Source of the DNA: Catellatospora bangladeshensis
GTDB lineage: Bacteria; Actinomycetota; Actinomycetes; Mycobacteriales; Micromonosporaceae
Assembly: GCF_016862575.1 (NCBI RefSeq)
Contig: NZ_BONF01000009.1
Coordinates: forward strand, 124,001-188,000
Length of the DNA stretch: 64,000 bases
Reading direction: 5' to 3'
Position numbers and translations under genes: made by a program
The notes under the pieces: model-generated
What the model was told of the DNA's origin: nothing
What the model saw: only the letters and a program-made list of their open reading frames with translations
Database searches by the model: none
Shown here: piece by piece, positions 7,511 to 55,805 of the stretch
Layout of the letters: every line of letters starts with the position of its first letter
How positions within the stretch are numbered: position 1 is the first letter of the stretch

Positions 7511-9289
7511 GTGACCGTGCAGGCACAGACGCCGCAGACCGCCGCGCCCGGCGACACCGCCGACCCGGCCCCGGCCGCCGGCGGCACCACCGGACCCGGC
7601 CAGGGCACACCGCCCGCCACGGCCGCGCCCGGAGACACGGCCGCGCCCGGAGACACGGCCGCGCCAGGTGACACGCTCGTGGCCGGTGAGACCGCCGCGC
7701 CCGGTACCGCGGCACCGCTGCGGCTGCCCGCCGCGACGGCGCTGGCCGCGGCCGCCGGGCTCGCGCTGCTGGCCGCGTTCCCGCCGTACGGGCTCTGGTG
7801 GGCCGCCCCGATCGGGGTGGCGCTGCTGGCCGTGGCCGTACGCGGGCGGCGGCTGCGCGCCGGGGCCGGGCTCGGCCTGCTCGCCGGGACCGTGTTCTTC
7901 GGGCCGCTGCTCGCGTGGACGAACCTGCACGTCGGCATCACACCGTGGGTGCTGCTCACCCTGTTCCAGGCCGGCTACCTCGCGCTGCTCGGCCTCGCCC
8001 TGGCCTGGGTCAGCCCCCTGGCCGCCCGGCGGCCGTGGGTGTGGCCGGCCGCGATCGCGCTGCTGTGGGTCGCGCAGGAGGCGCTGCGCGACCGGGCCCC
8101 GTTCGGCGGGTTCCCGTGGGGGCGGCTCGCGTTCAGCCAGGCCGACGCCCCCGGCCTAACCCTGGCCCTGCTCGGCGGCGCGCCGCTGGTCACCCTCGCC
8201 GTCGCCGCCACCGGCGGGCTGCTCGCCTGGGCCGCCGGTGACCTGATCACCGACCGGCGCGCCTGGCGCCGCCCCGCCGCCGCCCTCGCCGGCGCGGCCG
8301 TGGTCACCCTCGCCGGGCTCGCCGTGCCCACCGCCACCCCCACCGGGCAGGCCGTCACCGTCGCGATCGTGCAGGGCAACGTGCCCCGCCTCGGCCTGGA
8401 CTTCAACGCCCAGCGCCAGGCCGTCCTCAACAACCACGTGTCCGCGACCGTCGCCCTGGCCCGTGACGTCGACGCCGGGCGCCGGCCCCGCCCCGACCTG
8501 GTCGTGTGGCCCGAGAACGCCTCCGACATCGACCCGCTGCGCAACAGCGGCGCCGCCGAGGCCATCGACACCGCCGCCCGTGCCATCGGCGCGCCCATCC
8601 TCGTCGGCGCGGTCCTGTCCGGGCCCGAAGCGGGCCAGTCCCGCAACGCCGGCATCGTCTGGCCCCCCGGCCGCAGCCCCGGGGCCGCGCCGCAGCAGAT
8701 GTACCTCAAGCAGCACCCCGTCCCGTTCGCCGAGTACCTGCCGCTGCGGCCGATCGTCGAGCCCATCGCGCAGGCCATCACGAACCAGGCGAAACTGCTG
8801 CGCACCGACTTCGTCGCCGGCACCGCCCCCGGCGTGCTCACCCTCGGCCCCGCCCGGGTCGGTGACGTCATCTGCTTCGAGGTCGCCTACGACGACGTCG
8901 TGCGCGACACCGTACGCTCCGGCGCGCAGCTGCTGGCCGTACAGACCAACAACGCGACCTTCGACGAGTCTGAAGCGTTACAGCAGATGGCGATGGTCCG
9001 GTTGCGGGCCGTCGAGCACGGCCGCGACAGCCTCATGGCGTCGACCGTCGGTGTGTCCGGGTTTGTAACTGCTGACGGGACTGTGCATGATGCATCTGGT
9101 TTCAACACCGGTGCGGTGCTGGTGCGCGAGCTGCACCTGGGCGACACGGCTACCCTTGCCACGAGCCTGGGACCGTGGCCGGAGGCCGTGCTGACCTTCG
9201 CGGCGGCCGGGTTGCTGGTCGCGGCAGGCGTGGCGCGCAGGCGCCGCGCCATCCAGGTGCGAGACACTGAACAGGCAGGAGCGGCATAA
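7511..9289 (+). CDS. lnt: Apolipoprotein N-acyltransferase
   Basis: Transfers the third acyl chain to the N-terminal cysteine of lipoproteins in the membrane. The 592-aa protein has a repetitive Ala/Pro/Thr-rich N-terminus (about residues 1-65), a block of membrane helices (about 75-270) and a periplasm-facing nitrilase domain. The catalytic triad is visible: Glu in VVWPENASDID (about 335), Lys in MYLKQHPVPF (about 400) and Cys in GDVICFEVAYDD (about 455). A last helix is at the C-terminus. GTG 7511 is preferred (GGGGTGG ahead); an in-frame GTG at 7487 is an alternative. It is followed without a gap by ppm1; in mycobacteria these two activities are fused in one protein. Confidence 0.9.
   Translation: MTVQAQTPQTAAPGDTADPAPAAGGTTGPGQGTPPATAAPGDTAAPGDTAAPGDTLVAGETAAPGTAAPLRLPAATALAAAAGLALLAAFPPYGLWWAAPIGVALLAVAVRGRRLRAGAGLGLLAGTVFFGPLLAWTNLHVGITPWVLLTLFQAGYLALLGLALAWVSPLAARRPWVWPAAIALLWVAQEALRDRAPFGGFPWGRLAFSQADAPGLTLALLGGAPLVTLAVAATGGLLAWAAGDLITDRRAWRRPAAALAGAAVVTLAGLAVPTATPTGQAVTVAIVQGNVPRLGLDFNAQRQAVLNNHVSATVALARDVDAGRRPRPDLVVWPENASDIDPLRNSGAAEAIDTAARAIGAPILVGAVLSGPEAGQSRNAGIVWPPGRSPGAAPQQMYLKQHPVPFAEYLPLRPIVEPIAQAITNQAKLLRTDFVAGTAPGVLTLGPARVGDVICFEVAYDDVVRDTVRSGAQLLAVQTNNATFDESEALQQMAMVRLRAVEHGRDSLMASTVGVSGFVTADGTVHDASGFNTGAVLVRELHLGDTATLATSLGPWPEAVLTFAAAGLLVAAGVARRRRAIQVRDTEQAGAA
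7621..7674 (+). repeat. Three tandem 18-bp units inside lnt
   Basis: Units at 7621-7638, 7639-7656 and 7657-7674; the first two are identical (GGCCGCGCCCGGAGACAC) and the third differs by 2 bases. They encode a repeated six-residue Ala-Ala-Pro-Gly-Asp-Thr stretch in the poorly conserved N-terminus of Lnt. The unit length is a multiple of three, so copy-number change would keep the frame. Confidence 0.85.
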
Positions 9290-9301
9290 GTGGAGGCCCC
9301 C

Positions 9302-10090
9302 GTGAGCGGCAACGAGGCGGACAGCGGGTACCCGGGCGTAGGCCGGGTACTGGTGATCATCCCGACGTACAACGAGTCGGAGAACGTCCGCCTGATCGTG
9401 CCCCGGGTGCGCAAGAGCACCCCGCAGGTCGACATTCTCATCGCCGACGACAACAGCCCCGACGGCACCGGCGCCATCGCCGACGAGATGGCCGCCGCCG
9501 ACCCGCGCATCAAGGTCCTGCACCGCGAGGGCAAGCAGGGCCTGGGCGCGGCGTACATCGCGGGCTTCAACTGGGCCCACGAGCACGGCTACGACGCCGT
9601 CGTCGAGATGGACGCCGACGGCTCCCACGCCCCCGAGGAGCTGCCCCGGCTGCTGGACGCGCTGCGCGGCGCCGACGCGGTCATCGGGTCGCGCTGGGTG
9701 CGCGGCGGCAAGGTCATCAACTGGCCGGTGCGGCGCCTGATCCTGTCCCGCGGCGCGAACTTCTACACCCGCGTCGTCATGGGCATGGGCGTCAAGGACG
9801 CCACCGGCGGCTACCGCGCCTACCGGCTCCCCGTCCTGCGCAAGATCGACGTCGACACGGTCACCTCGCGCGGCTACAGCTTCCAGGTCGAGCTGACCCA
9901 TCGCACGCACCGCCACGGCTTCCGCATCGTGGAGGTCCCGATCACGTTCGCCGAGCGCGAGCACGGCGTGTCGAAGATGAGCGGCTCCATCATCAAGGAG
10001 GCGCTGTGGAAGGTCACCGTGTGGGGTGCGCAGTCCCGGCGTGACTCGATCCGGCGTATGTTCAAGCCGAACGAGGACCGCTGGCCGTGA
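9302..10090 (+). CDS. ppm1: Polyprenol monophosphomannose synthase (DPM1-like GT2)
   Basis: A cytoplasmic family-2 glycosyltransferase (262 aa) that transfers mannose from GDP-mannose to polyprenyl phosphate, supplying protein O-mannosylation and lipoglycan synthesis. Key features are the N-terminal [19 protein letters not shown] (about 48-55) and the metal-binding DADGSH (about 103). There are no C-terminal membrane helices, as in the short DPM1 class. The GTG at 9302 is preferred over the GTG at 9290 because GTGGAGG sits 5 bases ahead. It follows lnt by 12 bases, the same pairing as the fused mycobacterial Ppm1. Confidence 0.9.
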
Positions 10091-41824: not shown

Positions 41825-42061
41825 ATGAGCGACGCGACCAAACTCGCCGCCGCGGCCGGCAGCACCGACCCCGGCACCGGCCTACGCGCCGTGCTCGCCC
41901 TGCGCAGACTCCTCGAAACCCTCGAAGTGCTGCAGGTCGGCAACGCCCGCCGAGCCGGCTGGTCCTGGCAGGACATCGCCGACGCCCTCGAGGTCAGCCG
42001 CCAGGCCGTACACAAGAAACACGCCGCACGCTGGCCCGAACCGGACCGACGGGAGAAATGA
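41825..42061 (+). CDS. HTH regulator of the Clp-N pair
   Basis: A 78-aa helix-turn-helix protein (RAVLALRRLLETLEVLQVGNARRAGWSWQDIADALEVSRQAVHKKHA) of the type encoded immediately before Clp-N-domain genes in actinomycetes. It is expected to be translated from a leaderless mRNA and its stop overlaps the next ATG. It probably binds the 18-bp palindrome at the promoter. The ATG at 41825 is chosen because of the promoter spacing. Confidence 0.85.
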   Translation: MSDATKLAAAAGSTDPGTGLRAVLALRRLLETLEVLQVGNARRAGWSWQDIADALEVSRQAVHKKHAARWPEPDRREK

Positions 42062-42666
42062 TGTTCGAACGATTCACCGACGCCGCCCGCGCCACCGTCA
42101 ACGGCGCCCAGACCGAAGCCCGCCAACTCCGCCAGCACCACATCGGCACCGAACACCTCCTGCTCGCGCTCCTGCGCCCCGGCCCCGACACCGGCCTCGC
42201 CCACAACCTGCTCACCGCCACCGGCCTGCGCCACGACCAGGTCGCCGCCGACGTCACCCGCCTCGCCGACGCCACCGAACCCCTCGGCGCCGCCGACGCC
42301 GCCGCACTCGAAGCCATCGGCATCGACCTCGAAGCCGTCAAAGCCAAACTCGAAGAGAACTTCGGCCCGGGCGCCCTCACCCCGCCCAGCCCACCCGCCC
42401 GCCGCGGACTGTTCGGACGCCGCCGCGCCACCCCCACCAGCCCCGGCCACATCCCGTTCACCCCCCGCGCCAAAGTCGTGCTCGAACTCTCCCTGCGCGA
42501 AGCCCTCCGCCTCAAACACCGCCACATCGGCACCGAACACATCCTGCTCGGCCTCATCCGCGAAGGCCGCGGCCTCGCCGCCCGCATCCTCACCGACCAC
42601 GGCATCGACCTGCCCGACCTGCGCACCCGCACCGAACAGGCCGCAGCCGGCACCAAAACCGCCTGA
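42061..42666 (+). CDS. Clp N-terminal (double Clp-N) domain protein
   Basis: A 201-aa protein with two Clp-N repeats (MFERFTDAARATVNGAQTEARQL; HHIGTEHLLLALLRP at about 26-40 and RHIGTEHILLGLIREG at about 155-170) but no AAA+ ATPase, resembling ClpC's substrate/adaptor-binding module standing alone. It might compete for adaptor or arginine-phosphate-like degron binding. Coupled to the HTH gene. ATG 42061 or the preceding ATG at 42058 may start translation. Confidence 0.85.
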   Translation: MFERFTDAARATVNGAQTEARQLRQHHIGTEHLLLALLRPGPDTGLAHNLLTATGLRHDQVAADVTRLADATEPLGAADAAALEAIGIDLEAVKAKLEENFGPGALTPPSPPARRGLFGRRRATPTSPGHIPFTPRAKVVLELSLREALRLKHRHIGTEHILLGLIREGRGLAARILTDHGIDLPDLRTRTEQAAAGTKTA

Positions 42667-45996: not shown

Positions 45997-47859
45997 TCAC
46001 GACGGCCGGAAATACTCCCGGAAGGTCTGGTGAGCCAACCGGTACACCGTCGTTCCGTCCTCCGCATCGATCATCACGTACGGCGCTGCCGCCGCCAGAA
46101 CGTCGTCGACATCGGCCTCACGCACCTCCCCGGCCGACGACAGCGCTGCGGCCACCGTCGTCAACAGCTTGTCCGCCCGCGGCAACCCACGCCCCCGCGC
46201 GCACGCCAACGCCTCCAAGGTCGGCTCCGCCAGCGGAAACCGGTGGTTCAGCCGCTCGATCGCCTCCGCGAACAGCGCCCGGTGGTCCCTGTCCAGCAAC
46301 CTGGCAAGCCTCAGCCGTCGATGCGGCAGCAGCAACTGAGGACGCGCCAATATCTCATGTATCGCCAGCCGCGCGAACAGGAAATGCCGGCCCCGCAACG
46401 CCTCCACCACCCAGTCGACCGCACCCGAATCGGCTACCCCCGCCATGACCAGCCGCCGCCGCACGTACGCACCCACCGCCGCTGGGTCATGACCCAGCGT
46501 CTGCACCTGCGTGTCGGGCCCCCGCAACAACGCGAGCAGATCCTCGCCGGCCGGCCCCGCCACATCCGGATCGGTGCCCGTCGCCGGGCGCATCCCCAGC
46601 ACCACCCGGCAGCCGGGCACCCCCACCAGCCGCCGCCACACGCCGCTCGCCAACGCCTGCGGCTCCTGCGCCTCATCCAGCGCATCAGCAAGGACCCGAA
46701 ACGGCATTCCACGTGCGTGCAACGCGGCAACCAGCCCATCGACGCCGTCGACCGACCCCACACCGGAAGCCCACGCCAGACGCTCGACCACGTCGCTGAC
46801 ACGCAACCCCGTCAGGCTCATCACCGCGTGGAAAGCCCGCGCCGGAGCCGCGTACACAGGCACGTAGTCCGTAGCGCGGGCCAGCAGATCCCGCATACCC
46901 GGATCGGACTCGACCAGCACGTTACCGAGCAGGGCCGACTTACCCACGCCCGGCGGACCGGTCACCACATACAGGCCACGGCCCGAACCCCGCAGCCAGT
47001 CCACGATCCGGCGGCTCTCCTCAGCACGCCCCACAAAATGCCACGCCAGCTCACCCAGCTCCCCACCCTGCGCCTTCGGCAGGAAATGCGTCCGCTCATC
47101 GGCCGACAGACCCAACAGGAACCGCCGGAACTCCTCATACAGGTCCAGCGGCGCGTTGACCGGGCCCGGCAACACCCGGCGCCGCACCAGCCGAGCGGCC
47201 CTCCGCGCGGACAGCAGATGAGCGCAGCCCTCCTCCAGCCGATCCTCCAGCCGGCCAACCAGATCCTTCAGGGACACCGACTCGTCATTGTCCGTGTACG
47301 ACCGCAGCGTCGCCTCCAGCGCGTCGGAAAACCTCCCCAGATACCCGGTGCCCTCACCACCGGACCCGATCAGCGCCAGCCGTTGCGGGCTCGTGTGACG
47401 GCCGAGCAGGTGAGACGCCAGACGCCGCACGAACGTGTCGGCACCACACGCCTCCACCACCACCATCGCCCAGGCGTCCGCATGCGCCGCACGCCGCTGC
47501 CACTCGTTCACCACATGATCAGCGACCGCGTGCGGACTGAGGCCCGTACCGCGCATCGGCTTACCGGTCTCGTAGACACCCAGCCACGCATCGTCGCCGT
47601 CGCTCTCGCCGTGGCCAAGCCACACCACCACCGAACAACGCGCCGGATCCGGCTCCGACCACCGACGCAGCTCCTCGTTGACCGCAGACATGCTCGGCCC
47701 GGCCGGCGGCGGCCAAGGCGACCCCGACAACCCACCCAACTCCCGAAACAGCTCGGCCACCCGCCGCAGCTGCACCTCCATGTCGGAGATCGGGTCGTGA
47801 TGGGCGTACGCGCCGACCCCGACCAGCAGCACCTCGAAGCTGTCGCCCCCGCCCGTCAT
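45997..47859 (-). CDS. Caspase-NACHT (STAND NTPase) protein
   Basis: A 620-aa protein. Residues 1-160 form a caspase-like (C14) peptidase domain with catalytic His83 in WLGHGE and Cys138 in VEACGA. After a helical linker, VGRAEES (about 277) opens an AAA/NACHT-like domain with Walker A GPPGVGKSA (301-309; Lys307, Ser308) and Walker B-like ADALDEA (Asp395, Glu396), followed by helical and winged-helix parts ending VYRLAHQTFREYFRPS. It stops exactly where fused caspase-NACHT-WD40 proteins pass into the WD40 linker. The ATG overlaps the lipase stop (ATGA). It is the last gene of the three-gene operon. Confidence 0.88.
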   Translation of the reverse strand: MTGGGDSFEVLLVGVGAYAHHDPISDMEVQLRRVAELFRELGGLSGSPWPPPAGPSMSAVNEELRRWSEPDPARCSVVVWLGHGESDGDDAWLGVYETGKPMRGTGLSPHAVADHVVNEWQRRAAHADAWAMVVVEACGADTFVRRLASHLLGRHTSPQRLALIGSGGEGTGYLGRFSDALEATLRSYTDNDESVSLKDLVGRLEDRLEEGCAHLLSARRAARLVRRRVLPGPVNAPLDLYEEFRRFLLGLSADERTHFLPKAQGGELGELAWHFVGRAEESRRIVDWLRGSGRGLYVVTGPPGVGKSALLGNVLVESDPGMRDLLARATDYVPVYAAPARAFHAVMSLTGLRVSDVVERLAWASGVGSVDGVDGLVAALHARGMPFRVLADALDEAQEPQALASGVWRRLVGVPGCRVVLGMRPATGTDPDVAGPAGEDLLALLRGPDTQVQTLGHDPAAVGAYVRRRLVMAGVADSGAVDWVVEALRGRHFLFARLAIHEILARPQLLLPHRRLRLARLLDRDHRALFAEAIERLNHRFPLAEPTLEALACARGRGLPRADKLLTTVAAALSSAGEVREADVDDVLAAAAPYVMIDAEDGTTVYRLAHQTFREYFRPS

Positions 47860-49145
47860 GACGTCGCAAGTACCAACTGGCGCACCGCCGACGCGCCACC
47901 ACTCTTGACCTCGACCCGGTACAGACCGCGAGCCGGCAGACGCACATACGCGACCGTGGCTCCACCCGCCGCGACGAATACGGGCCGCGCCACCGACGCC
48001 CCGGTCCCGGCGTCGACCACACGGCACGTCACTCGCGCAGGATCCGAGCGGTTCACCGCCACGACGTCGAACTGCTCGCCGACCTGGACCACATCAGGCA
48101 CCTCCACACCCACACCTTCGGCACCCAGCGGCGGCCCGAGCGGCGACTCCGTCAGGACCGCCCGCACATGTGCGATCACCTCGGCCGTCCGTGCCAGCGC
48201 CCCGTGCCCCTGCGACACGTACGTGGGCTCCACGCCCGGCGGCGCAGCCGCATCACGGTAGACGGTGCCGTCACCGGCCCGGTTCTCGGCGCCAGCGAGG
48301 AAGTCGTGCACCGTGACCACGCCCTCCACGATCTCCAGCGACTGAGCCGTCGGCTGATCCACCCCGACGACCGCACGCAGCCCCGGCCGCCCGAGCAGCC
48401 GATCGGCCTCAGCCGAGAACGGCAGCGCCGCCTTGGCCAGATCCAGGTCGCCGCCGAAATCCGCCACGTCAACCGGCTCCAGTCGGCGCAGCCCCCCTGC
48501 GGCGCGCACACACCGGTACCGGGGGAGCAGGTCGTAAAGACCCGGCAGCGCCACAGCCAGCTCACGCACCCTCCGGTGCGGCAACGGAACGGGCGTGCCC
48601 AGCCCAGAGTTGATCATCTTGGTGGCCGCGACCGCGCCGAAGAACGGCGTCCCGATAGTTATGACACTTCGGGTGATCTCCGAACCGCCGAGCAACTCCG
48701 TGAACCACCTCGCGACCAGCCCTCCCATGGAATGGGCGACCAGCACCAGACGCGCTTGCGGATCACCCAGCCGATGCCGCCGCCACCGCTCCAGATGCCG
48801 CACCGCCGCCTGCGCCAGCCCTTGGGCGTTCACTGACACCGCCAGCCGCCAGTCGTACGGGAACTCGGCCACCGCCGCCGGGTCGGCGCACACCTGCCGC
48901 AGCGCAGCCAGCAGCTCGGTATAGGGCTCCACTCCACGCAGGAACGGCGCGAACGCCGGCGCGCGAAGCAGCCGCGTGGCCCGCACCGGCGCCCTGCCCG
49001 GCATCAGTGGCAGCAGGCCGTCCCCACCCAACCAGGCGTCGGCGTACCATCGCACGTCCGCCATACCCCAGACCACCGAGTCCGTCCGCTCGTCGACGAG
49101 CTCGCTGCCCATGATCCCGGGGATGACCATCACCGCATCCCGCAT
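47856..49145 (-). CDS. LCAT/PGAP1-like serine lipase-acyltransferase
   Basis: A 429-aa alpha/beta hydrolase of the lecithin:cholesterol acyltransferase type. The oxyanion loop VIPGIMGSEL is at 8-17, nucleophile Ser139 in AHSMGGLVARW, Asp292 in GDGTVYRD and His314 in SQGHGAL. No signal peptide is seen, so it is cytoplasmic unless released. Residues 341-429 form an extra Ig-like/beta-sandwich domain, an addition to the usual family core. It lies between the WD40 and caspase-NACHT genes (12 bases after the first, 4-base overlap with the second). It could be a membrane-attacking effector. Confidence 0.85.
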   Translation of the reverse strand: MRDAVMVIPGIMGSELVDERTDSVVWGMADVRWYADAWLGGDGLLPLMPGRAPVRATRLLRAPAFAPFLRGVEPYTELLAALRQVCADPAAVAEFPYDWRLAVSVNAQGLAQAAVRHLERWRRHRLGDPQARLVLVAHSMGGLVARWFTELLGGSEITRSVITIGTPFFGAVAATKMINSGLGTPVPLPHRRVRELAVALPGLYDLLPRYRCVRAAGGLRRLEPVDVADFGGDLDLAKAALPFSAEADRLLGRPGLRAVVGVDQPTAQSLEIVEGVVTVHDFLAGAENRAGDGTVYRDAAAPPGVEPTYVSQGHGALARTAEVIAHVRAVLTESPLGPPLGAEGVGVEVPDVVQVGEQFDVVAVNRSDPARVTCRVVDAGTGASVARPVFVAAGGATVAYVRLPARGLYRVEVKSGGASAVRQLVLATS

Positions 49146-49157
49146 CCCGGCCCTCCT

Positions 49158-51377
49158 TCACGAGCGAGTCCCCGTCACGCCAAGCATAAGAACACCCGCG
49201 TCAGTGCCGATGGCAACCCGATCACGCTGCGCGACAAGGATGTGCGGCTGCACCCCCAACGGCAGGACATGCAGCGGCGAGCCCGATTCCACATCCCACA
49301 GACGCACCGTCTGATCACCGCCGATGCTCACCAGCGCCTCACCCGAACCGGTCGAGACCAGCCCGAGCGAGCGCACCGTGCCACGATGGCCGGTCATGGC
49401 AGGCAGCAGCTGGCGGCCGCTCTCCGCATCCCACACGATGATCGACCCGTCATTGCCACCAGTGACCAGGCGCACCCCACCCGCGACCGGAACTGCGACG
49501 ATCGTGCGCACCCAGTCGGTGTGACCACGCAAAGGGGGCCCCGCCGGTTCGAACGTCGCAGCGCTCCACCGCAGCACCGACTGATCGTTGCCAGCGGTGA
49601 ACAGCAGCCGCTGCCCACCCACCGAGGCGCAGGCCATCGTCCGCACCGCGTTCAGGTGACCGCGCAGTGGTGGCCGCACCTCGCCACCGGTGCCGTCCCA
49701 GACCCTGATCACGCCGTCGTTGCCGCCGCTGGCGAACAACGAACCGCCGAGATCGGCGATCGCCCGCACCCAGCCATCATGGGCCTGCCACCCTGGCCCC
49801 ACGGGCTCCGACATGTCCGGCGACCAGAGCCGTATCCGGCCGTCATCACCGCCACTGGCCACCAGTCCGGCCACCCGCTGCAGCACCGTGACCGCACCGG
49901 AATGCGCCCGCCACGGCAACCGGACGACCTCACCACCGTCAAACGACCACCCGACCACCAGACCGTCCGCGCTGCCCGTGAACAGTACCGTCGCCGACCC
50001 GCTCGCCGCCGATGTCGCCGCCCGCACCGACCCGCGATGGTGCGCCGCGGAGGCCGGGGGAGGCGGCAGCACGGTGCTCCACAACCGCACGGTGCCGTCC
50101 TCACCGCCCGTGGCCAGCAACGACCTGCCGTCCAACATCGTCAGGCCACCGACGGCGGTGACCGGGCCGAGATGCCCGCCCCCGGCGACCTGCCGGGACG
50201 TCCCGTCGCTCGGCTCCAGGGCCCAGACCGTGCCCGCGTCAGTGCCGGCCATCAGCACGCCGCCGATGCCGGACGGCACCGCCGCCAGGCACGAAATCCA
50301 GTCGACCGCTCGTGACCACGAAGACGACACCGCACCGGTGGCCGTGTCGCAGACCATGACCGCACCGTCCACGTTCGCGACCGCGATCGCATCCCCGTCA
50401 CCGGTCCGCACCGCCGTGAGGTGCAAGACCGGACCACCCTGGCCGCGAGTGTGCAGCTCACCGCCCGGAAGCCGCCTGATCCGCAGCTCGCCGTTCTCGG
50501 CCGTGGCGACCGCGGCGCCACCGCCTGCCAGAATCAGCGCCACCGCGAGCTCGACACCTGGCGCGGCGAACTCCGACCGCGGCTCCAGGTCGGCGGACCA
50601 GACGGTGACCCCGCCGGCCGACGCCGACAGAACATGCTCGTCCAGGTCTGCTCCTGCCGCGCCGACGCTCAGCGAGAGCACCGCCGAGGCCAGCTGCCGC
50701 TCGGCGGTCAACCGGCCGGTCCTGACGTCCCACAGCCGAACGGCTCCGTCTTCGCCGCCGGTGACGAAGCCGCCGGCCGTGGCGGCGATCGCGGTGACCG
50801 CACCGGCGTGCGCCGCCAACGGGTCCAGCACGGGCTGGCCGGCCTCGGGGTCCCAAAGCCGCACGACACCGTCCTCGGCCCCGGTCGCGAGCAGCTTGCG
50901 GTTCGGTCCGGCCACGACGGCCGTCAGCACGGTAACCTTGGCGGTGTGCGCGCCCAGTGTCACGTGCAGCGGTTCGTAGCGGTGGTGACACCAGTCGAAA
51001 CGCCATCGCCCGACCCCGGCGAAGTGTTCCCGGGGTTCGGCGCCGCCGAGCCTGCTGGCCTCGATCGCCCGGATGGCGGCCCGGTCCTCGGGCGCGGCGG
51101 CGACCAGGAGGTGGTGGGCCGCGAGCACCGAGGCGACGCTCATGGGAAGATCCGATCGTCCGAAAGCGACTCGGAGTGCCTCGCCGGCTACTCGCTGGGG
51201 GTCCAGCCAGTCGATCACTACACCCTCGTCCGCGAGCAGCTGCCAGGCATTTGCCTCGGCCACGTGCTCAGGAAGGTAGCGGGACAGATAGGGGCTGGGC
51301 GGCTCAGGCAAGCCCTCGCGGACCAGGGCCAGTAGCCGCGCCACCACCGCGGTGAGGCGCCGTTCGGCTTCCGTCAT
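49158..51377 (-). CDS. WD40-repeat sensor protein with STAND-linker N-terminus
   Basis: A 739-aa protein. Residues 1-135 are helical (PYLSRYLPEHVAEANAW..., ADEGVVIDWLDPQRVAGEALR), the segment normally found between NACHT and WD40 in fused STAND proteins. About 14 WD40 repeats follow (for example GAEDGVVRLWD, GGEDGAVRLWD, GGDDGRIRLWS, GGNDGVIRVWD, GGDQTVRLWD), enough for two seven-bladed propellers. The later repeats are more regular than the middle ones. It is the first gene of the operon; the ATG has a GGGGGTGGG site ahead. Confidence 0.88.
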   Translation of the reverse strand: MTEAERRLTAVVARLLALVREGLPEPPSPYLSRYLPEHVAEANAWQLLADEGVVIDWLDPQRVAGEALRVAFGRSDLPMSVASVLAAHHLLVAAAPEDRAAIRAIEASRLGGAEPREHFAGVGRWRFDWCHHRYEPLHVTLGAHTAKVTVLTAVVAGPNRKLLATGAEDGVVRLWDPEAGQPVLDPLAAHAGAVTAIAATAGGFVTGGEDGAVRLWDVRTGRLTAERQLASAVLSLSVGAAGADLDEHVLSASAGGVTVWSADLEPRSEFAAPGVELAVALILAGGGAAVATAENGELRIRRLPGGELHTRGQGGPVLHLTAVRTGDGDAIAVANVDGAVMVCDTATGAVSSSWSRAVDWISCLAAVPSGIGGVLMAGTDAGTVWALEPSDGTSRQVAGGGHLGPVTAVGGLTMLDGRSLLATGGEDGTVRLWSTVLPPPPASAAHHRGSVRAATSAASGSATVLFTGSADGLVVGWSFDGGEVVRLPWRAHSGAVTVLQRVAGLVASGGDDGRIRLWSPDMSEPVGPGWQAHDGWVRAIADLGGSLFASGGNDGVIRVWDGTGGEVRPPLRGHLNAVRTMACASVGGQRLLFTAGNDQSVLRWSAATFEPAGPPLRGHTDWVRTIVAVPVAGGVRLVTGGNDGSIIVWDAESGRQLLPAMTGHRGTVRSLGLVSTGSGEALVSIGGDQTVRLWDVESGSPLHVLPLGVQPHILVAQRDRVAIGTDAGVLMLGVTGTRS

Positions 51378-54123: not shown

Positions 54124-54939
54124 GTGGCGGTTGGGGATGTTCGGCGCGGTGAGCTGACGACCGGTGAGTTCGGCCGGCGGTCGGGTCTGTCGGTGAAGGC
54201 GCTGCGGTTGTATGACGTGTCGGGGCTGCTGTGCCCGGCGCGGGTGGATTCGGTGACGGGTTACCGGTGGTATGCGGTGGAGCAGCTGGCGCGGGCGCGG
54301 CGGATCAGCTTGCTGCGCCAGCTGGAGATGCCGCTGGCGGTGATCGGCGAGCTGCTGGCGCTGTCCGACGAGGAGGCCGTGTTGCGGCTGGAGCGGTGGT
54401 GGGCGGCGCAGGAGGCGGCGGTGGTGGCGCGGCGGGGCACGCTGTCGCAGTTGCGGGGCGAGCTGTTGCGGGCGGCGGTGCCGGAGGTGGCGTTTGCGGT
54501 GGCGGTGCGGCGGGTGCCGGAGGTGAAGGTGGCGGCGCTGCGGTTCGAGGTGGATCAGCAGGGGCTGGTGGCGGCGATGCGGTTGGGTGAGGACGTGTTG
54601 CGGCGGCATCTGGCGGCTTCGGGTGTGGGGCCGGGTGGGTCGTTGCGGGTGCTGTATCTGGGGCCGGTGACGCCGGACTGTGCGGCGCCGATCGAGGTGT
54701 GTGTGCCGTTCTCGGGTGGGCTGGAGCCGGCGCGTACGGAGGTGTTCTGCACGGTGCTGCGGGATGACTGCTTCTATCCGCGGATCATGTCGGCGTATGC
54801 GGCGGTGGACGGGTTCGTGCGGGATGCGGGTCTGGTGGCGGCGGGTCCGGTGCGGGAGGTGTATCTGGCGGACTGGGATGCGGTGGCCGGGGATGGGCCG
54901 TACGCGGAGGTGGCGATGCCGGTGGAGGGGTGGTCGTGA
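54124..54939 (+). CDS. MerR-family regulator with ligand-binding domain
   Basis: A 271-aa MerR protein (LTTGEFGRRSGLSVKALRLYDVSGLLCPARVDSVTGYRWYAVEQLARARRISLLRQLEMPLAVIGELLALS, about 10-80), followed by a coiled-coil helix and a C-terminal GyrI/BmrR-like SRPBCC-type domain. The GTG start at 54124 is tentative. The stop overlaps the transglutaminase ATG, so the two are coupled; the regulator may sense the partner's product. Confidence 0.82.
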   Translation: MAVGDVRRGELTTGEFGRRSGLSVKALRLYDVSGLLCPARVDSVTGYRWYAVEQLARARRISLLRQLEMPLAVIGELLALSDEEAVLRLERWWAAQEAAVVARRGTLSQLRGELLRAAVPEVAFAVAVRRVPEVKVAALRFEVDQQGLVAAMRLGEDVLRRHLAASGVGPGGSLRVLYLGPVTPDCAAPIEVCVPFSGGLEPARTEVFCTVLRDDCFYPRIMSAYAAVDGFVRDAGLVAAGPVREVYLADWDAVAGDGPYAEVAMPVEGWS

Positions 54940-55805
54940 TGGTGCGGGACTGGTCGGGCCACTCCCCCTACAGCGATCCGGGTGGGTTCGCGCCGTTGCT
55001 GGACGGGTTGCCGGGTGAGGTGCGGGAGCTGGCGGCGGTGGTGCGCAACGTGCTGGTGCACTACCGGGCGGCGGGGATCGTGTTCGAGGGCGGGCGGCTG
55101 GCGGAGATCGACAACCGGTGGGTGGACCGGATCCTTGCCGCTGATCAGGGGCGTTTCCCGGTGCCGCTGGAGGTGCCGCGGCCGGTGGGGTCGCGGGTGG
55201 TGGGCTGTTGCCGGGACTTCACGTTGCTGACGGTGGCGGCGTTGCGGCAGCGTGGGGTGCCGGCGCGGTCGCGGGTGGGGTTCGCGTCGTATCTGGTGCC
55301 GGGGTTTCACTGCGATCACGTGGTGGCGGAGTTCTGGGACGGCGAGCGGTGGGTATGGGTGGACGCCCAGCTGGATCCGGCACGCGGCTGGGGGTTCGAT
55401 CCGGCGGATGTGCCGGGTGCGGTGTTCGCGTCGGCGGCGTCGGTGTGGTCGGCGTACCGACGCGGTGAGGTCGACGTGGACCGGTATGGGGTGGATCCGT
55501 CGCTGCCGCAGTTGTCCGGGGGCTGGTTGGTGTTCGACTACGTGCTGCTGGAGCTGGCGCATCGGCAGGGCGACGAGCTGCTGTTGTGGGACGGCTGGGG
55601 TGGCATGGTCGAGGATCTGGCGGGGGCGGACCTGGGGCTGGCCGATGGGGTGTCGGCGTTGCTGCTGGCCGCGGACGGCGGTGACGAGTCTGCGGAGCGG
55701 GAGCTTGCGGCCTGGTACGCGCGGGATGCGCGGCTGCGCCCGTCGGGCCGGGTGCGGTGTCGTTCGCCGCGTGGCGTGACGGATTGGGTGGAGCTGCGGG
55801 GCTGA
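54939..55805 (+). CDS. Transglutaminase-like protein
   Basis: A 288-aa protein with a transglutaminase/protease-like core. Cys in VVGCCRDFTLLTVAALRQRGVPARSRVGF (about 89), His in FHCDHVVAEFWDGERWVWVDAQLD (about 126) and Asp 15 residues later form the C-H-D triad. The C-terminal region is not recognised. It is coupled to the MerR gene. It may cleave or cross-link proteins, or form an amide link in a metabolite. Confidence 0.8.
   Translation: MVRDWSGHSPYSDPGGFAPLLDGLPGEVRELAAVVRNVLVHYRAAGIVFEGGRLAEIDNRWVDRILAADQGRFPVPLEVPRPVGSRVVGCCRDFTLLTVAALRQRGVPARSRVGFASYLVPGFHCDHVVAEFWDGERWVWVDAQLDPARGWGFDPADVPGAVFASAASVWSAYRRGEVDVDRYGVDPSLPQLSGGWLVFDYVLLELAHRQGDELLLWDGWGGMVEDLAGADLGLADGVSALLLAADGGDESAERELAAWYARDARLRPSGRVRCRSPRGVTDWVELRG

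Follow-up and report, generated by a model that had tools for sequence, protein, structure and literature searches.

In the ternary VMAP (vWA-MoxR) systems, which are widespread in actinobacteria and whose component trees agree, the caspase-bearing VMAP component is described as always adjoining an alpha/beta-hydrolase gene (Kaur et al. 2020, PMC7159879). Proteins of the metacaspase-NACHT-WD40 type have been called widely distributed (Asplund-Samuelsson et al. 2012, PMC3501461), and proteases fused to defence enzymes are reported to activate a co-encoded pro-nuclease in Hachiman, Avs1, Lamassu and canu, the last of which uses a caspase, with other proteolytically activated enzymes being suggested as well (Tuck et al. 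2025, PMC12799240). For the CARD-NLR / gasdermin-type systems, a phospholipase is mentioned as an alternative effector (PMC13236601). Here, we describe a three-gene operon from a 64,000-nucleotide stretch of the genome of Catellatospora bangladeshensis (the whole of which we call the window), encoding a WD40 protein, an LCAT-type lipase and a caspase-STAND protein. It joins a known kind of sensor protein to a known kind of effector pair in a unit that we have not found described, and the window carries a rare split and permuted form of that unit.

The operon resembles each of these precedents in part. With the VMAP systems it shares the pairing of a caspase with an alpha/beta-hydrolase gene, whereas its caspase is carried by a STAND-WD40 protein. 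We could discard the idea that it is itself a VMAP system, as VMAP-C (PF20028) had no match in the genome of the window (MoxR and vWA were not part of that search); six VMAP loci from three other genomes (L108-L113) gave no match to the lipase profile. The domain order of metacaspase-NACHT-WD40 proteins is that of the fused relatives of the operon, but the window form consists of two proteins in permuted order, and a lipase partner goes unmentioned in the available passages of PMC3501461. The protease/pro-nuclease pairs share with the operon the placing of a hydrolase gene next to, and as a rule ahead of, the gene of a protease joined to a defence enzyme. The lipase, however, occupies the place of the MBL-fold nuclease (the Pfam families shown for the three genes include no MBL match), and cleavage would be by analogy only. 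CARD-NLR systems likewise combine an NLR-like ATPase, a protease and a membrane-killing effector; theirs is a trypsin-type protease accompanied by CARD, whereas the window operon has a caspase and no CARD was noticed in it, although no search was aimed at one. Beyond these named precedents we found no description of a caspase-lipase STAND operon, and none in the available parts of PMC8195603 and PMC10907252; supplements and most subscription papers lay outside this search.

A caspase-STAND gene and its near-constant lipase partner

The three genes run leftward in the order WD40, lipase, caspase-STAND, with a 12-base gap at the first junction and a 4-base ATGA overlap at the second, just as an earlier sequence-only reading had laid them out; the residues it had singled out (His83/Cys138 of the caspase domain, Lys307 in GPPGVGKS and Ser139 in AHSMGG) are all correct. 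The WD40 protein matches Pfam PF00400 at 129.8 bits against a cut-off of 27. A simple motif finds nine of its blades, and the remainder of about 14 are judged from their spacing; in PADLOC it meets one repeat-region model, HEAT-ARM_XIII, with its best stretch at 541-700. The lipase matches Pfam LCAT at 42.1 bits (cut-off 21) and keeps the Ser-Asp-His triad, which places it in the LCAT / group XV phospholipase A2 type. Its kin of known structure in a PDB sequence search include PLA2G15 (group XV phospholipase A2) and LCAT. Since it begins straight in the hydrolase core, with no signal peptide visible by eye, it is likely a cytosolic enzyme.

Assignment of the third protein was less direct. Both of its Pfam matches are sub-threshold (AAA_16 at 30.4 against 32.6, ATPase_2 at 22.4 against 33.2), and Pfam NACHT (PF05729) gave no match above its cut-off. 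Among the relatives, nSTAND1 passes in two loci (L007 and L068) and NACHT appears in L068 below its cut-off. The protein has a Walker A motif (GPPGVGKS) and an acidic Walker B (VLADALDEA). All 21 aligned proteins share the G, K and S of Walker A as well as D386, L388 and D389 (numbered on the trimmed row). Judged by its motifs and relatives, the STAND assignment can be taken as secure, with NACHT a label within the STAND group; the NACHT in the earlier name, caspase-NACHT, is not backed by Pfam for this protein. Similarly, the caspase domain has no match to Pfam Peptidase_C14, a PDB sequence search with the caspase profile recovered no caspase, and the paralogue in the same genome (L004) reaches an E value of only 0.0084 against Peptidase_C14. 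More distant relatives (L057, L069 and L072) do exceed the Peptidase_C14 cut-off. The dyad context of caspases, (h)xGHG ... (D/E)(A/S/T)C, is present, and its His and Cys columns are invariant in 21/21 proteins of the alignment (A3). We call the domain a caspase because of this invariant GHG...(D/E)(A/T)C pattern and of the distant relatives that pass Peptidase_C14.

Relatives were searched by family, order, class and phylum and in a further family and genus, all within the phylum of the window, and one cross-phyla scan used two short exact patterns. Several searches scored only 3-6 candidates per genome, so that absences are weak. All finds are actinomycetes. We define core loci as those with a STAND-profile score of at least 230 bits and the wider STAND group as those of 95-230 bits; an alpha/beta-hydrolase counts as a neighbour if its frame lies within 600 bases, measured between stop-to-stop open frames and not chosen starts. 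By this measure, 33 of 35 core loci have an alpha/beta-hydrolase neighbour. One of the two misses, L046, has an intact dyad and no hydrolase; the other, L095, lies on a contig that starts inside the gene, and its likely other half, L096, has the lipase. This core count includes the loci from which the profiles were built. A later set gave a hydrolase neighbour in 16/16 loci (15 LCAT-type, one of a small hydrolase family); it is independent, comprising 15 distinct loci that are in no profile, as L114 repeats the record of L010. In a scan of named genomes, the lipase lay directly upstream of the caspase-STAND gene in all six loci, which came from Streptomyces, Actinocrispum, Actinacidiphila and three Kribbella.

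The reverse search gave the same picture. Across 36 genomes, 21 of them chosen for a core caspase-STAND gene and 15 without a core match, 24 lipases scored above 300 bits and 23 of these lie beside a caspase-STAND gene, the exception being L102. None of the 15 genomes without a core match has a lipase above 300 bits; they hold four weaker matches, namely a 48-bit match in G083, L103 (239 bits), L105 and L106. In L106 (3067-7791), the distant lipase relative adjoins a 1076-aa Peptidase_C14 gene with DUF7379. The adjacency of lipase and caspase-STAND gene is beyond chance, as the lipase neighbour recurs in dozens of loci and the break between STAND module and linker, described below, in several. 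The sequence-only reading had regarded the lipase as an extra gene inserted between two halves; the counts from the core, later and reverse searches rule this out, since the lipase is a near-constant partner whether the caspase-STAND protein is split or fused.

In the wider STAND group, 24 of 32 loci have a hydrolase neighbour, from two different hydrolase families. The second is a small alpha/beta-hydrolase family of about 300 aa with an HSLGS motif, which replaces the lipase beside distant caspase-STAND genes, mostly in overlapping frames. It was counted in 17 loci (L060, L066, L067, L069, L071, L073, L074 and ten more), with its profile built from 7 of them and the other 10 outside it, and the three members scanned have weak Pfam abhydrolase matches.

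The two partners also share their history. Pairwise distances between lipases correlate with those between STAND domains (r 0.79 over 30 loci, with none of 5000 permutations as high; r 0.70 over 28 loci), and the nearest neighbour is identical for both proteins in 19 of 30 loci. Within the paralogue pair of the window genome, as within a pair in genome G320, lipase and caspase-STAND protein differ about equally, the pattern that would arise if every copy retained its own partner. The effector gene is thus found together with the protease gene and shares its inheritance, as looked for in a protease/pro-effector pair.

Splitting and reordering of the unit

The caspase-STAND and WD40 proteins of the window are the two sides of a fused relative, cut at the boundary between STAND module and linker, and fused and split forms share this boundary. 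That fused caspase-NACHT-WD40 proteins exist had been stated in the sequence-only reading. The fused state is the commonest among the relatives fetched, with a caspase-STAND-linker-WD40 chain in L010 (Actinocrispum), L011, L042 and L043. Compared against these, the caspase protein of the window does end at the boundary and the WD40 protein does start with the linker, as proposed. At 1330, 1334 and 1513 aa, the frames of the three Kribbella loci are long, and L007, the one scanned, has weak propeller matches. A split with the linker heading the WD40 protein is seen in the window, L004, L006 (from the named-genome scan), L044, L053, L086, L098 and L118, although L098 gave no caspase-profile match, and in L095 the split is seen from the STAND side. 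At L044, a 628-aa gene with no Pfam match (7905-9791) follows the split caspase-STAND gene with a 4-base overlap, and the WD40/linker gene lies past it on the opposite strand.

The genome of the window (G000; 8.83 Mb in 115 contigs) holds one other full-length copy, L004 on contig C17, at 47% identity, while a third match is weak and partial. In L004 the lipase gene comes first, then caspase-STAND and then WD40, and both junctions are 4-base overlaps. The window copy is therefore unlike its paralogue in having the WD40 gene ahead of the lipase/caspase pair. This WD40-first order recurs in one further genome, from another family of the same taxonomic order, where L096 reads WD40, lipase (ATGA overlap) and caspase-STAND (GTGA overlap). 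On the L095 contig, the STAND piece closes with a stop codon and an unrelated gene comes next; we infer that the L095 and L096 contigs are one locus. No further case turned up in 24 genomes of that family, and the order is known from two genomes only. The description of the halves as reversed was right in that WD40 comes first. What was rearranged is the WD40 gene, moved ahead of an intact pair, because the lipase is the near-constant partner and the pair stayed together.

Trees were built for the STAND domains of 32 of the 35 core loci (L056-L058 were omitted as distant), for 32 lipases of at least 300 bits plus L085, and for a wider set of 62 STAND domains of at least 140 bits. The STAND tree makes L095 the sister of L053, which is a split locus in canonical order (support 99/90), and places the window elsewhere with weak support; in the lipase tree, L096 pairs with L053. 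A single clade of the window and L095/L096 was rejected by the approximately unbiased (AU) test (p 0.0005 for STAND, p 0.002 for lipase), as was a single clade of the six core split loci (AU p 0.0026, STAND tree). The fewest changes on the STAND tree are three for split versus fused and two for the permuted order. Since the trees reject one clade for the two WD40-first loci, the gene order changed at least twice, and all three genes stayed side by side throughout.

Such a history bears on whether the window holds a decaying locus, its split and permuted copy being the broken remnant of a fused gene. Broken frames do occur in some relatives (the L044 lipase, L054, L055 and L059). However, the three window frames are complete and tightly joined with all tested catalytic residues present, both the separation of STAND module from linker and the WD40-first order arose again elsewhere, and the paralogue L004 is split too, with 4-base overlaps. 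We therefore regard decay as highly improbable.

Other arrangements were met among the relatives. In L068, which has both caspase motifs, and L103, which has DTC only, the STAND gene is separate, a TPR-rich partner replaces WD40 and the lipase lies at one end; here, the sensor has been swapped on a separate chain. In L116 (485-4599) and L047 (196-4775), a second distant STAND gene with a separate WD40 gene is divergent from the main operon, so that two units stand back-to-back.

How the unit may work

We propose that the operon encodes a three-protein STAND unit of the Apaf-1/NLR-like kind with a two-chain sensor, in which the caspase turns on, and most likely cuts, a membrane-attacking lipase that kills the cell itself; in our judgement, this account is about as apt to be right as wrong. 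The WD40 protein, with its two probable propellers, would hold or sense the trigger, and its N-terminal linker would dock on the C-terminus of the caspase-STAND protein and thereby restore the fused chain in trans. Binding of the trigger would allow the ATP switch to oligomerise, and the clustered caspase may then become active and turn on the co-encoded cytosolic LCAT-type lipase, most likely via cutting. The lipase would degrade the membrane phospholipids of its own cell, leading to altruistic death or growth arrest. The roles of the lipase as killer and of the caspase as its likely switch, and with them activation of the lipase by the protease, are suggested by analogy with the caspase-hydrolase pairs of VMAP systems and the protease/pro-nuclease pairs.

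Several observations weigh against this account. Co-inheritance of lipase and STAND protein is no proof of physical contact. Neither the lipase nor the caspase-STAND protein matches a PADLOC defence family, and a Pfam search of ten flanking frames, to which PADLOC was not applied, turned up no recognisable defence family. An intact caspase dyad occurs without a nearby hydrolase in L046, and five proteins of the wider group (L072, L076, L078, L086 and L091) have both caspase motifs and no hydrolase nearby. Moreover, the 1875-aa frame of L102 (1073-6700) carries a core-type lipase as its C-terminal portion and matches AAA_16 of the STAND group but no caspase, showing that the lipase need not be caspase-dependent.

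The main rival dispenses with cleavage. Here, the STAND switch would activate caspase and lipase separately as two parallel effectors: the wheel, once assembled, would recruit the lipase, while the caspase would cut other proteins of the cell. The lipase of L102, sitting on a STAND ATPase without a caspase match, favours this, as does L105 (2435-7673), where a distant lipase relative stands in a row with CHAT-SIR2 and nSTAND1 genes; the variable position of the lipase gene (upstream, downstream or divergent), and the caspase-bearing proteins with no hydrolase neighbour listed above, are in keeping with it too. The motif counts argue otherwise. A simple search for GHG and (D/E/N)(A/S/T)C in the 32 proteins of the wider group found both motifs in 23, one in six and neither in three. 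By this post-hoc count, none of the 24 hydrolase-bearing loci lacks caspase motifs altogether (18 have both, six have one), and the three proteins with neither (L061, L080 and L099) are among the eight without a hydrolase. Furthermore, those protease/partner pairs that have been tested work via cleavage (PMC12799240). We consider parallel effectors rather unlikely.

A conserved basic PxRR-x-R loop in the lipase (residues 189-194) was considered as the site of caspase cutting; this was not upheld, and the loop is only a candidate. Of the 32 core lipases, 28 have R or K at position 194, as does L100; none of the 15 distant lipases has either there, and position 191 varies. The STAND gene next to L100 has no caspase-profile match, though GHG and NSC motifs are present.

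The same machinery could also serve a purpose other than defence, namely programmed lysis or development in filamentous actinomycetes, through hyphal death or sporulation. All finds are actinomycetes (a weak test, given the phylum-bound searches and the one short-pattern scan), the flanking genes are ordinary, and a CARD-NLR-like unit is mentioned as serving gene-transfer-agent lysis (PMC13236601). Against this stands the sporadic presence of the unit: among the 199 genomes searched in one genus, 11 have a match at 1e-60, and none of the ten other genomes in the genus of the window has a match extending over the caspase part (both searches scored few candidates per genome). Sporadic presence suits conflict genes better than development, and we hold a developmental unit to be improbable. 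A defence role is likely, with the sporadic distribution as its main sign.

The proposed caspase-lipase unit can be put in a more specific and more tentative form: a two-chain bacterial apoptosome, in which a dissociable WD40 sensor sits on a caspase-STAND wheel and the caspase matures a cell-lysing phospholipase. We offer this form as possible, though less likely than not.

Annotated features and wider meaning

The positions of the operon features are collected below. An alternative, longer frame of the caspase-STAND gene would start at a GTG at 48027 and overlap the lipase gene by 172 bases; we prefer the ATG at 47859 because of the tight junction and of its agreement with the start of the paralogue.

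Features of the three-gene operon, in window coordinates
Feature	Position	Strand	Remark
WD40 gene (P0001), 739 aa	49158..51377	-	N-terminal linker region and about 14 WD40 blades
P0001 linker region, residues 1-140	50958..51377	-	homologous to the segment after the STAND module in fused relatives
Gap of 12 bases, WD40 stop to lipase start	49146..49157	-	
Lipase gene (P0002), 429 aa	47856..49145	-	LCAT / group XV phospholipase A2 type
ATGA overlap, 4 bases, lipase stop / caspase start	47856..47859		
Caspase-STAND (NACHT-like) gene (P0003), 620 aa	45997..47859	-	terminates just past the STAND module
Lipase Ser139 codon (AHSMGG), catalytic	48729..48731	-	invariant in 32/32 core lipases
Lipase Asp292 codon (GDGTV)	48270..48272	-	invariant in 32/32 core lipases
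Lipase His314 codon	48204..48206	-	invariant in 32/32 core lipases
Lipase C-terminal domain, about residues 345-429	47859..48113	-	family profile against filamin Ig-like repeats, weak, E 0.002
Caspase His83 codon (WLGHGE)	47611..47613	-	
Caspase Cys138 codon (VEACGA)	47446..47448	-	
Walker A Lys307 codon (GPPGVGKS)	46939..46941	-	

A scan for promoters and terminators found none; its patterns were of the sigma-70 type, which may be ill suited to this organism. Near the operon, the window also contains a stand-alone Clp_N-domain gene (42058-42666) and a transglutaminase-like gene (54930-55805).

To conclude, the operon brings three known themes, namely metacaspase-NACHT-WD40 proteins, caspase and alpha/beta-hydrolase pairs and protease-activated effectors, into a single compact and clonable unit, with a hydrolase partner that stays almost constant across several actinomycete families. 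Whether bacterial caspases activate lipases via cleavage, and whether the WD40 sensor of an Apaf-1-like protein can be a swappable subunit, become directly testable questions, and the canonical and the permuted copy that occur naturally in the same genome provide a ready test of partner specificity. If true, the apoptosome/pro-lipase reading would carry the principle of the protease/pro-nuclease pairs over to membrane lipases. It would then follow from the recurrent splitting and reordering that a STAND sensor can be an exchangeable subunit, not a fixed C-terminal tail.

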